A DNA stretch of 55,043 bases. Origin: a virus. Below the pieces are notes generated by a model that was not told where the DNA came from, made no database searches, and was given only the letters and a program-made list of their open reading frames with translations. The stretch is taken from IMG/VR virus record IMGVR_UViG_3300042479_000786, positions 1-55,043 of that record; one strand, 5' to 3'. Made by a program: the position numbers and the translations under genes. Positions 7,684 to 10,991 of the stretch are shown one piece after another. Positions within the stretch are counted from its first letter, which is position 1, and every line of letters starts with the position of its first letter.

Positions 7684-7716
7684 TTTGGAAGTCTGGAACC
7701 TAATACTATACCTTTG
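7684..7716 (+). promoter_or_regulatory. Rightward promoter of the replication operon
   Basis: TTTG at 7684-7687 and TACCTTTG at 7709-7716 are separated by 21 nt, fitting the Bacteroidota TTTG-N(19-21)-TAnnTTTG promoter. Transcription would start near 7720-7724, producing a leader of about 140 nt before the ATG at 7864 that contains the hairpin-rich element at 7756-7852. Confidence 0.6.
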
Positions 7717-7755
7717 ACGCAGTTCTTTATCCAAAAATCGAAGTCTAAAGTCAGA

Positions 7756-7852
7756 GGTAGTAGCCTGATTTAAACAATAACATTACGCCCATTGAGGGCT
7801 GCGAGGTGATGAAAATCACCGCTACTACCGCAGTCCTTAATGGGCTTTTTTT
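7756..7852 (+). ncRNA. Structured leader RNA with terminator
   Basis: Three elements nest here. (1) A long stem pairs 7787-7803 (GCCCATTGAGGGCTGCG) with 7829-7845 and is followed by seven T residues, the form of an intrinsic terminator. (2) Inside it sits a perfect hairpin, GGTGAT-GAAA-ATCACC (7805-7820), with a GNRA loop. (3) The bases after that hairpin, GCTACTACC (7821-7829), are fully complementary to GGTAGTAGC upstream (7756-7764), which would make a pseudoknot or a competing fold. It lies between the promoter and the first replication gene. It could be an attenuator, a riboswitch-like switch, or an independent small RNA ending at the terminator. No known class is recognised. Confidence 0.55.
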
Positions 7853-7863
7853 ATCTCCAAAAT

Positions 7864-8799
7864 ATGAGAAAGTCATTCGTGCTTTACACCGATCTTTACG
7901 AAACATTACAACATTTGAGTGACGAAAACCTCGGACGACTCACCAAAATGATCTTCGAGTACGTAATTTTCGACGTCGAGCCGGACACGTCTGACATGCT
8001 GTTTTTGGTGTTTAACCCCATAAAAATGCAAATTAACCGCGATAACGAAAAATACGAGAAACGCTCAGAACGCAGTCGTGTCAACGGTTCCATGGGAGGA
8101 CGACCAAACAAAAATAACCTAGATAACCCACTGGGTTTTCTGGGTTACCAAAATAACCCAGAGGTTATTCTGGGTTACAAGAAAAAGCTAACCGAACCCA
8201 GAAAACCTGATAATGATAATGATAATGATAATGATAATGATAATGACAATGAAAAGAGAAAAGAAATATATGTGGCTTCGCATGTTTTTTTTGAAGAGGA
8301 ATTGAAAACTCAAGGGCTTAAAGAAAACTCAAAAAAAAGGGTAACACATTCCCGGGGGGCGGAGGGGGTCACCCAGCCGAAAGTCAAAACTTTCAAACAG
8401 TGGACATCTGAAGATTTAAAAAATAACATCTCACCCCATGTTATAAAATACGGCCGAGAAATCTGCAATGAGTTTTACCGATACTGGAGCGAACCAACCG
8501 CAAACGGAAAAATGAGGATCAATTCAGAATCTGCCTTCGAGGTGACCAGGAGGCTTGACACCTTCCTTCGCAACGCAAGCAAGTTCGGCTCCAAGCAGAA
8601 GGTCATCCAAAACCAGCTGGCTTTCAAAACCAAAGCAGAGGCCGAGCAGTACATGATCGACACTTACTTCCACGGCAAGAGCGAATACGGCCCAAAGGTT
8701 TACGGCATCGAACTAGTCGACGAGAATAACCAACCAAGAGACATCAACACCATCCACGAAGAAATCAACAAGGCCGTCCTAGGCGGATTAAATCTCTAA
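7864..8799 (+). CDS. Replication initiator-like protein, 311 aa
   Basis: The start is the ATG at 7864 (MRKSFVLYTDLYETL); an in-frame ATG 24 bases upstream lies inside the terminator stem and is rejected. Residues 1-80 resemble the N-terminal domain found in many phage and plasmid replication-organiser proteins of the DUF6291 kind (name from memory): LSDENLGRLTKMIFEYV, then KYEKRSERSRVNGSMGGRP. A variable linker (about 84-165) holds seven Asp-Asn dipeptides and the iteron-like DNA repeats. The C-terminal part (about 175-230) has HVIKYGREICNEFYRYWSEP, a motif common in such proteins and probably helicase-interacting. It is followed after 2 bases by the primase-helicase gene, as lambda O is followed by P. 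Confidence 0.6.
   Translation: MRKSFVLYTDLYETLQHLSDENLGRLTKMIFEYVIFDVEPDTSDMLFLVFNPIKMQINRDNEKYEKRSERSRVNGSMGGRPNKNNLDNPLGFLGYQNNPEVILGYKKKLTEPRKPDNDNDNDNDNDNDNEKRKEIYVASHVFFEEELKTQGLKENSKKRVTHSRGAEGVTQPKVKTFKQWTSEDLKNNISPHVIKYGREICNEFYRYWSEPTANGKMRINSESAFEVTRRLDTFLRNASKFGSKQKVIQNQLAFKTKAEAEQYMIDTYFHGKSEYGPKVYGIELVDENNQPRDINTIHEEINKAVLGGLNL
8113..8200 (+). repeat. Iteron-like TAACCCA/TGGGTTA cluster, possible origin
   Basis: Within 88 bases the heptamer TAACCCA or its complement TGGGTTA, allowing one mismatch, occurs about eight times in both orientations (near 8113, 8124, 8132, 8141, 8153, 8163, 8171 and 8194). Two sets form inverted repeats: AACCCA-C-TGGGTT at 8125-8137 and AATAACC-CAGA-GGTTATT at 8152-8169. 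The cluster lies in the linker of the initiator-like gene, the position of the lambda origin inside gene O. Origin function is inferred. Confidence 0.5.
8209..8250 (+). repeat. GATAAT hexamer tandem repeat
   Basis: Six perfect GATAAT units are followed by one GACAAT. They are in frame and encode seven Asp-Asn dipeptides, so copy-number change would alter linker length without a frameshift. The AT-rich tract lies directly beside the iteron-like cluster, where a DNA-unwinding element would be expected. Confidence 0.85.
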
Positions 8800-8801
8800 C
8801 C

Positions 8802-10991
8802 ATGCTCAACCAAGCCAAGCACCTGATCGAAAATGGATTCTCGGTAATCCCGGTCAACGAGAAGAAGCAGCCCATGGTCGCATTCAAGAGATCCGGCTAT
8901 ACCCAGAACCTGCCAGGAAACGAACTCGACCTGCTCTATACCCAAAGCCATGGCATCGCCATCATCGCAGGGGAGGTCTCAGGTAACCTGATCTGCATCG
9001 ATGTGGACCTGAAGTACGACATCTCCGGCGATCTCATGTCACGACTCAAGCAGCGGCTCGTGGAGGTCATCCCAAGCTTCTTTGACCGCATCGTTCTCCA
9101 ACAAACCAGAACCAATGGCTTTCACCTGATCTTCCGTGTCGAACAAGGCACCAAGGTCGGAGGGAACAAGAAACTGGCTATGAGATCCACCAACGAGGCA
9201 GAGCTCGAGGAGGACCGGAAGAACAATCCGAAACTAAAAAAATCAGAACGCGTATTGATCGAGACCAGGGGGGAGGGGGGTTATTTCCTAATCGCTCCCA
9301 CCCCAGGATATAAAATCATAAAAAACACCTTCGGCTCCATCGGGACATTCACCCCAGATGAGTTAGATGCCGTATTTGCCACCTGCCGTTCGTTTAACGA
9401 GCTTGAAATAGCAGAAGTGGTATATGACATCCAAGACAGAAAGATAATGTCTGTAACGTCCTCTATCGAGGTCAGCCCTTGGGATGATTATAACAACCGG
9501 ACCGATGGTGTCGCCCTTCTCGAGAGTTATGGGTGGGAGGTAAGTGGTCAGATTAACTCAACCACACTCAAGCTTTTGCGTCCAGGCAAGCCATCAAAAG
9601 GCGAGCACAGCGCTTACTACCACACGGATTCAGGTAAGTTAGTAGTCTTTTCTACTTCCACCCCATTCGAGACTGAGCGCAATGGTACCTCACCGGCATA
9701 TACCCCGTTCGCTATCTATGCCGTCTACGAACATAACGGGAACATCAAGGAAGCGGCTAAGATGCTTAGCGATCATGGTTTTGGTAGTAGCAAGTTCAAG
9801 CAGGAGTCACACCGTCCAGAGGTAGTACTCCGGCCGAAAGACATGCCAGAGCATCGGTCCAAGCCAGCCGATCCAGAGGAGCCATCCCGTATGGAAGACC
9901 CCGACAACAAGGACTCTGATGTGTCGAAGTTTATTGGTGACTTCAACAACGCTGTTGGATACCTCAACATGGCCAGAAGCAACTCCCTGCCAGAGGGATT
10001 GAAGTTCGGATACGAGAAGCTGGATAACCACTGGAGACTCAAGAAAGGGGCGCTTGTCATTGTCCACGGATTGGCCAACGTAGGGAAGTCTACCTTCATG
10101 TGGTATATCGCTATCCTATCCGCCATGGCACACGGCTGGAGATGGGTGATCTATACCGGTGAGAATGATTATGAATTCGTGATCCGTCGTATGATGGAGA
10201 CCTATTCTGGCAAGTCTCTCCATACCCTCACCCAGGACGAATGGGATATCGCTGAGATCTTTGTCCGCACACACTTTGTGTTCATCACCAACGACTTCAC
10301 GTACTCTTACAAAGACCTGCTCGGGATCGTTGAGAAGCTCATGGAAGAGCAGCACTTCGATGCCATCATGGTCGATCCGTATAACTCGTTAGTTGTCGAT
10401 GATACCATCGCTAAACAGATCAAGATATTGGCAGGTAATAAGCACGATTACGATTATATGGTAACCACGGAGCTTAGGGTATTCTGTCGTAAGACCGGCT
10501 TGAGTGTTTATCTCAATGTCCATACAGGAACAGAGGGAGCGAGAAGGGTAGCTAAGGATCCAAGCAAGCCTCCTAAAATGTACGAGGTAGAGGGTGGAAA
10601 TAAGTTCGCAGCACGGGCTGATGATTTCATCACCATACACCGCAACACAAAGGACGAAAGCTCATGGATGATAACCGAGGTTCATATCGATAAGATCAAG
10701 ACCCAGGAGACCGGTGGCCGGCCTACTGCCGAGGATCGCCCTATCACACTCAGGTTCCTTCCGGAGATGGGTAGGTTTATGGGAAGCACGCTAGGCACCT
10801 CGCATACATTCGATCCGATCAACCAATACAAGAAAGGTAAGCACGCTTACCCTAACTCTACACCCGAACCGGTTAACCTTCCTCCTGAGATAACCCCAGA
10901 GGAATATGTCAAACCGGTGACCCCAGGTCTGCTTAATGCCAGAGAGAGCTTTTTTACATCTAATGTCAGCGATGACGATTCACCATTCTAG
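8802..10991 (+). CDS. Primase-polymerase/replicative helicase fusion
   Basis: A 729-residue protein joining two replication activities. Residues 1-210 form a bifunctional primase-polymerase (prim-pol) domain: ENGFSVIPVNEKKQP at the start, the catalytic CIDVD pair (Asp67, Asp69) and a later GEGGYFLIAP strand. Residues about 395-700 form a RecA-fold SF4 helicase with Walker A GLANVGKST (423-431, Lys429) and Walker B IMVDP (Asp525). Prim-pol domains synthesise primers and the helicase unwinds the fork; such fusions are common in phages and plasmids. The gene follows the initiator by 2 bases and precedes the NinB-like gene by 2 bases. The middle region (about 340-395) is charged and Pro-rich, a likely flexible linker. 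Confidence 0.85.
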   Translation: MLNQAKHLIENGFSVIPVNEKKQPMVAFKRSGYTQNLPGNELDLLYTQSHGIAIIAGEVSGNLICIDVDLKYDISGDLMSRLKQRLVEVIPSFFDRIVLQQTRTNGFHLIFRVEQGTKVGGNKKLAMRSTNEAELEEDRKNNPKLKKSERVLIETRGEGGYFLIAPTPGYKIIKNTFGSIGTFTPDELDAVFATCRSFNELEIAEVVYDIQDRKIMSVTSSIEVSPWDDYNNRTDGVALLESYGWEVSGQINSTTLKLLRPGKPSKGEHSAYYHTDSGKLVVFSTSTPFETERNGTSPAYTPFAIYAVYEHNGNIKEAAKMLSDHGFGSSKFKQESHRPEVVLRPKDMPEHRSKPADPEEPSRMEDPDNKDSDVSKFIGDFNNAVGYLNMARSNSLPEGLKFGYEKLDNHWRLKKGALVIVHGLANVGKSTFMWYIAILSAMAHGWRWVIYTGENDYEFVIRRMMETYSGKSLHTLTQDEWDIAEIFVRTHFVFITNDFTYSYKDLLGIVEKLMEEQHFDAIMVDPYNSLVVDDTIAKQIKILAGNKHDYDYMVTTELRVFCRKTGLSVYLNVHTGTEGARRVAKDPSKPPKMYEVEGGNKFAARADDFITIHRNTKDESSWMITEVHIDKIKTQETGGRPTAEDRPITLRFLPEMGRFMGSTLGTSHTFDPINQYKKGKHAYPNSTPEPVNLPPEITPEEYVKPVTPGLLNARESFFTSNVSDDDSPF

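Follow-up and report, generated by a model that had tools for sequence, protein, structure and literature searches.

A candidate attenuator leader with loop-loop complementarity between its 5' hairpin and its own terminator, ahead of phage replication genes

The window, by which we mean the whole stretch of 55,043 nt that was analysed, from a virus of Bacteroidota, carries a compact leader directly before a gene encoding a DUF6291 protein, which is followed by a gene for a PrimPol/DnaB-like helicase and then by a NinB-like gene (Table 1). Because these are the genes that come next, the leader is taken as the head of a replication operon. A promoter had been claimed upstream of the terminator in the preliminary description, and one is present there, but of the Bacteroidota type (TTTG/TACCTTTG), with 21 nt between its two elements; a scan for sigma-70-type promoters misses it. 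The TACCTTTG box follows the TAnnTTTG consensus described for Bacteroides and Flavobacterium (PMC7366714). As the Bacteroidota box has been placed at -12 to -5 (PMC9723704), transcription is predicted to start at about position 7721.

Table 1. Leader features and first operon genes in the window
Feature	Position	Strand	Basis
-33-like element, TTTG	7684-7687	+	sequence, consensus
-7 box, TACCTTTG (TAnnTTTG consensus, Bacteroidota sigma-A)	7709-7716	+	sequence
Hairpin P0 carrying the A strand	7748-7771 (arms 7748-7754/7765-7771; loop A7755 plus A)	+	covariation
A strand, GGTAGTAGC, in P0 loop	7756-7764	+	sequence; loop-loop helix partner of B
Linker from P0 to P1, 15 nt			sequence
Terminator stem P1, 16 pairs	7787-7845 (GCCCATTGAGGGCTGC 7787-7802 with GCAGTCCTTAATGGGC 7830-7845)	+	fold, compensatory changes
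Inner hairpin P2, GGTGAT-GAAA-ATCACC	7805-7820	+	sequence
B strand, GCTACTACC, nine-base bulge	7821-7829	+	complementary to A; adjoins P1 3' arm, no spacer
U-run of the intrinsic terminator	7846-7852	+	sequence
DUF6291 protein, first operon gene, 311 aa from ATG 7864	7864-8799	+	PF19808, E 1.3e-24
PrimPol/DnaB-like helicase, second operon gene	8802-10991	+	PF09250, PF03796; PHROG primase/helicase

The element folds at -47 kcal/mol, with z = -5.7 against dinucleotide shuffles. Its 3' half is the strong intrinsic terminator that had been proposed, P1 and the U-run both being read directly from the sequence, and it ends close before the start codon, with a gap of 11 nt rather than 12. On direct reading, A and B are perfect reverse complements, which bears out the nine-base complementarity between upstream RNA and terminator interior noted earlier; a match of this kind arose by chance in 21 of 20,000 shuffles, and a scan of the whole window found the layout of a terminator loop complementary to upstream RNA only at this leader. 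The hairpin P0 around A had been overlooked in the preliminary description and is kept by compensatory change. The only bases that A:B and the P1 stem have in common in the window are those of one optional pair, G7803-C7829. The GNRA hairpin reported in the terminator loop does exist, as P2 with its GAAA loop, but this loop is not a conserved feature, and most other families lack P2; a role of the loop as a functional receptor was accordingly rejected and the hairpin regarded as incidental. Extension of A:B into the P1 3' arm (7746-7764/7821-7839, 79% complementary) was also rejected, since it adds only 1.6 kcal/mol and is not general.

Between the promoter box and P0 lies an insert of about 30 nt (7718-7749) that is missing in the related contig L002. 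It resembles the terminator 3' arm together with the bases after it, as if a copy had decayed (CGCAGTTCTTTAT at 7718 against CGCAGTCCTTAAT at 7829), and could pair with the P1 5' arm at 7791-7803. Words with at most one mismatch to GGTAGTAGC occur 15 times in the window where 6.5 are expected (1 of 100 shuffles), one of them being an exact copy at 9783 in the helicase gene. Within the DUF6291 gene, at 8106-8180, CTGGGTTA/TAACCCAG recurs in inverted copies, which gave a chance-like scan match on the minus strand. A tRNA-Gly (gcc) gene lies on the minus strand at 2535-2613.

The pattern GGTAGTAGC-N40..70-GCTACTACCGCAG retrieved 24 IMG/VR contigs, all 24 of them homologues. L002, whose primase-helicase is 80% identical, contains the element, and its helices P0, P1 and P2 all show compensatory changes. 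In 14 aligned members, changes on both sides were observed at six of the seven P0 pairs and at 7 of the 16 P1 pairs, while the sequence of P2 turns over completely inside this exact GGTAGTAGC family. The first genes after the leader vary as well, including DUF6291, HNH endonuclease, helicase-like and unknown genes. A:B is invariant in this family because the search pattern fixed it; a pattern for the 3' half alone returned 14 further contigs with one true member (L137), which already has the same A, so that the exact family cannot reveal covariation of A:B.

A covariance model of the close members gave weak matches before DUF6291 genes, in which the letters were different yet still complementary (GUCGUAG/CUACGAC, GUAGAAG/CUUCUAC and GGUCUCAC/GUGAGACC). 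Further DUF6291 loci, taken from bacterial genomes and isolated phages as well as viral contigs, revealed a recurrent succession of promoter box, A, terminator with B in its loop, U-run and ATG, with A falling within the first bases of the predicted transcript. An unfiltered scan for A/B pairs produced many chance matches, the control counts exceeding the real ones at 7 nt, and therefore only results filtered for promoter, terminator and gene, or obtained by comparing cognate with non-cognate combinations, are used here. The filtered scan yielded 97 matches, against 1 and 8 in the reversed and complement controls, and among these are 72 distinct elements; their A strands represent 36 different words, and B matches A in every case. 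The general anatomy of an attenuator leader, in which the first gene of an operon is immediately preceded by a promoter, a structured RNA segment and an intrinsic terminator, was found in the window and in the 72 distinct relatives, which precede DUF6291, helicase, ERF, HNH or YopX genes. A sense reading frame lies close behind the leader in 94 of 96 scan matches, under a permissive start filter. The ATG of the distinct relatives comes 6-51 nt after the U-run (median 18), and in most of them a further promoter would not fit into this gap. Upstream of A there is a TAnn[TC]TTG box at a distance of 3-39 nt, mostly 5-14 nt, whereas A in the window stands 39 nt after the box.

Isolates with the leader include Cellulophaga phages phi19:3 and phi13:2, Flavobacterium phage 11b and Olleya phage Harreka_1. 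The terminator U-runs precede gp007 and gp058 in phi19:3 and PHG11b_62 in 11b. The isolates were reached only through protein (DUF6291) anchoring; no match came from searching isolated phages at the nucleotide level, whether the query was the window or one of three diverged elements. The exact A...B pattern had no match in bacterial genomes; a DUF6291 query led to bacterial-genome loci, and two of these (L150 and L154) have the leader. By eye, a similar leader was recognised in the cultured Pedobacter sp. Leaf170 (L152:3860-4002; AAGATTGACA/TGTCAATCTT, 18-bp terminator) and the same design in a Woesebacteria-labelled contig (L163; AACGGCTAA/TTAGCCGTT); since the scan missed both, it undercounts. 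Phage phi19:3 has two cassettes, with CTCTCACAA before its DUF6291 gene and CCTTCAC before its YopX gene, and three contigs (L177, L183 and L187) likewise have two cassettes each with different words. Judging from these words, each operon has its own A/B address.

In the families without P2 (GGTAGGA, or A6, and L091/L176/L242, or A7) the terminator stem consists of a lower part of about 11 bp and a short upper part, separated by a shared internal loop, AGTA/GAAA or TGAA/GGA, whose bases may form tandem sheared G-A pairs. A second type of leader, with no terminator, was observed about 110 bases upstream of the DUF6291 start in L026, L028/L029, L030, L186, L189, L193 and L194. It has a stem from the presumed +1 (GAGAGG/CCTCTC, GTGTG/CACAC, GTGGTG/CACCAC) and a loop often containing (A)AAGGTT, and a segment of the loop is complementary to RNA near the ATG (ACACAGTT/AACTGTGT, CAGAGTT/AACTCTG, CGAGTT/AACTCG, AGACTAT/ATAGTC). 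This second type has no Rfam match; it looks like a covarying H-type pseudoknot, perhaps acting on translation.

Pairing between A and B was assessed with a cognate test in which terminators were picked by energy and position alone, blind to A and B. In 21 of 27 independent leaders the interior of the terminator matched the RNA upstream of it over 7 nt or more; non-cognate combinations, 702 in all, reached this length in 12% of cases (binomial p 8e-15; Mann-Whitney 1e-11). In the GGTAGGA family (24 sequences) the A:B helix is 99.4% paired, against 37-54% for slid controls; three of its seven pairs have changed on both sides (AU to GC and CG, GC to UA, AU to GC), and its covariation score was reached by none of 500 shuffles. 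G-U pairs are absent from A:B in this family, whereas P1 has many, a strictness that fits a kissing geometry and would equally fit inverted sites in DNA. Between the twin leaders L242 (CTCTCAC/GTGAGAG) and L245 (CTTCCAC/GTGGAAG), 4 of 14 A/B sites have changed, each with compensation, compared with 2 of 75 other sites, and a joint switch of A and B distinguishes a second near-identical pair (L198 and L200). Overall, A and B evolve at 0.06 changes per site, below the 0.10-0.18 of the linker, stem and 5' flank, and are therefore constrained, not diversified; diversifying selection was rejected, as these rates show the opposite despite the occasional joint switches. The check by covariation proposed in the preliminary description is thus answered in its favour by compensatory changes in the A:B helix, P0 and P1 and across 36 A words, and the view that A:B pairing is under selection is well supported by these comparisons.

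The geometry of the element is also conserved. B adjoins the P1 3' arm with 0 nt between them in 61 of the 72 distinct relatives, and the distance from the end of B to the U-run is mostly 15-20 nt (median 17), whereas the corresponding distance in ordinary terminator-like hairpins of the same contigs is scattered from 2 to 30. The spacing from A to B is 40-79 nt, mostly 47-56, and across the 36 A words the stem flanking A is longer and commoner than in shuffles (p = 1e-5). Such an arrangement is what stacking of a kissing helix on the terminator would require. The order of events was modelled for 36 families by folding, with nested structures only, the RNA exposed while the polymerase stands on the U-run and protects 12-16 nt. 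A:B was the minimum-energy state of the exposed RNA in 29-31 of the 36 families, and the full-length RNA formed P1 in 35 of 36; as the preference shifts from A:B to P1 on completion, A:B is predicted to be available exactly when termination is decided. The model orders these events and gives no sign of their effect because it ignores pseudoknots. A:B and P1 are mutually exclusive in it, although the two could coexist, and a kissing helix on P1 might strengthen the terminator.

On the comparative evidence we regard the element as a probable transcription attenuator, acting in cis from the 5' end of a phage early/replication operon, in which A:B would delay closure of the terminator and so permit read-through. 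This reading builds on four points established from the sequence and by comparison: the anatomy of the leader, the selection acting on A:B pairing, a geometry that is conserved and a constant placement ahead of genes. A:B would presumably form in the nascent RNA. The polymerase would start at about 7721 and make P0, the loop of which would expose A; the terminator, with B as its loop or inner bulge, would be made next. B would leave the polymerase as the enzyme reaches the U-run, so that A:B pairing and terminator closure would coincide. If A caught B first, closure of P1 would be delayed and the polymerase would run into the operon, whereas if A were occupied or missed B, P1 would close and a leader RNA of about 100-130 nt would be released. 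P0, A:B and P1 could all be present together in this released RNA, which would then be an intramolecular kissing-loop pseudoknot in which B stacks on the P1 3' arm. As to the input, our preferred guess is that A would be occupied by accumulated leader RNA or by a phage factor recognising the fold. The earlier suggestion of an attenuator or switch before the replication operon is hence upheld as a pseudoknot-capable attenuator, but not as a pairing that competes in the manner of a classical exclusive helix: B lies in a loop or bulge and ends before the P1 3' arm in all families, and because A:B shares no stem bases with P1 bar the one optional pair, the leader is not a classical mutually exclusive terminator/antiterminator. 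A ligand switch or riboswitch was rejected, there being no conserved core; only the promoter, the helices and the U-run are common across families.

The direction of the effect is the more delicate part of this reading, and read-through is favoured over termination only slightly. It is possible, though we find it rather doubtful, that A:B instead stacks on P1 and strengthens or accelerates termination, making the leader a default-off gate that would need an antitermination factor; taken by itself, this sign of the effect would be nearly as likely as read-through. The spacerless junction of B and the P1 3' arm is the arrangement needed for coaxial stacking, all helices are able to coexist in the released RNA, and the different words used per genome, such as the two of phi19:3, would suit a factor that reads structure and not sequence, for which the recognition of RNAI/RNAII by Rop is a model. 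However, a plain strong hairpin would terminate without such machinery, A:B is predicted to precede P1, and no candidate protein was identified.

An RNA of self-directed immunity or gene dosage similar to that of phage P4 appears unlikely. The released leader would then act in trans, either its B or its A pairing with the complementary strand of a nascent leader, and shut off the operon in further genome copies or superinfecting relatives. The position before replication genes, the self-complementarity of the leader and the P4 CI RNA precedent (PMC4825925) are in keeping with such a role, as are the specificities switched jointly in near-identical leaders and the pairs of cassettes with different words in one genome. 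Against it, A and B can be satisfied in cis within the released RNA, they change more slowly than the rest of the leader, and single words such as GGTAGTAGC and GGTAGGA are common to many phages, unlike a diversifying immunity. The stand-alone small RNA ending at the terminator that was offered as an alternative in the preliminary description, here read as acting on other targets with only an incidental gene behind it, seems very improbable: although it would account for the element having its own promoter and terminator, a very stable fold and a 5' end protected by pairing, nearly every relative sits within the short distance before a sense gene given above and none is confidently alone, and 36 A words leave no conserved seed. 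We give least credence to A and B being inverted DNA sites of a phage repressor, at the promoter start and about 50 bp downstream, with their location in RNA loops coincidental, for while the strict Watson-Crick match and the clustering of A-to-B spacing near 51 would be consistent with such sites, A is embedded in a covarying hairpin, B keeps a fixed distance from the U-run and 3' arm even where P2 is inserted 5' of it, and the spacing ranges from 40 to 79.

To our knowledge, little is known of how transcription is controlled in phages of Bacteroidota, which dominate gut and marine communities. The attenuator reading would, if true, provide a direct way to ask how these phages time their replication genes, as well as a portable attenuator with programmable specificity, for which 36 natural A/B words already exist. 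With members in isolated phages and a similar leader recognised by eye in the cultured Pedobacter genome, the class lends itself to immediate testing. More tentatively, the leaders may together represent an undescribed and widespread device of Bacteroidota phages, in which a promoter is followed by a leader of about 100 nt. The 5' end of this leader would form a kissing contact with the loop of its own terminator while the polymerase stands on the U-run, every operon would have a private address, and the device would serve early genes as a self-sensing timer or a dosage gate. The claim that no described class has this layout agrees with our searches: no Rfam 15 family reached its gathering threshold for the window or for 15 loci with divergent members, the best sub-threshold matches at relaxed settings were microRNA hairpins far below their cut-offs, and no description of this leader was found in the literature searched, with subscription journals mostly outside its coverage. 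Attenuator leaders are known as a general kind, whereas the present architecture appears to be undescribed, as do its spread and the covariation of its addresses.

Several known systems share parts of the design. The preQ1-I and SAM-II riboswitches place a pseudoknot near a terminator or start codon in a 5' leader and have a conserved ligand-binding core, unlike the present leaders, in which the paired letters turn over freely and no core is common across families. HK022 put RNA, which we compare here by description only, is a structured leader of a phage early operon that alters termination, but it has no terminator and modifies the polymerase for distant ones, whereas this leader has its own. 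Kissing complexes of the ColE1 RNAI/RNAII and TAR type involve loops of 6-9 bases, fully Watson-Crick paired and stacked on the 3' arm of a stem; the loops described here are similar in size and pairing, although the contact there is intermolecular and here would join the 5'-terminal hairpin with the terminator of one leader. In plasmids pT181 and pIP501, attenuation takes place just before a replication gene through loop-loop contacts with a counter-transcribed antisense RNA, and the pairing of pre-emptor and terminator arm is mutually exclusive, in contrast to this leader, whose partner lies in cis and whose terminator arms are spared. Termination in satellite phage P4 is Rho-dependent, and the C4 RNA of P1 and P7 is an RNA of the P4 CI type. 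The CI RNA of P4 pairs with the flanking seqA and seqC and stops transcription of the replication genes (PMC4825925). The likeness to P4 is that a phage replication operon begins with an untranslated leader containing complementary segments, the pairing of which governs premature termination in P4 (PMC4825925), and A/B with a predicted intrinsic terminator do precede the DUF6291/PrimPol-helicase operon; the faster diversification of specificity segments is absent here, A and B being the slower part. Unlike P4, where a processed CI RNA acts in trans on flanking segments, this leader holds both partners itself, and B forms the loop of its own intrinsic terminator.
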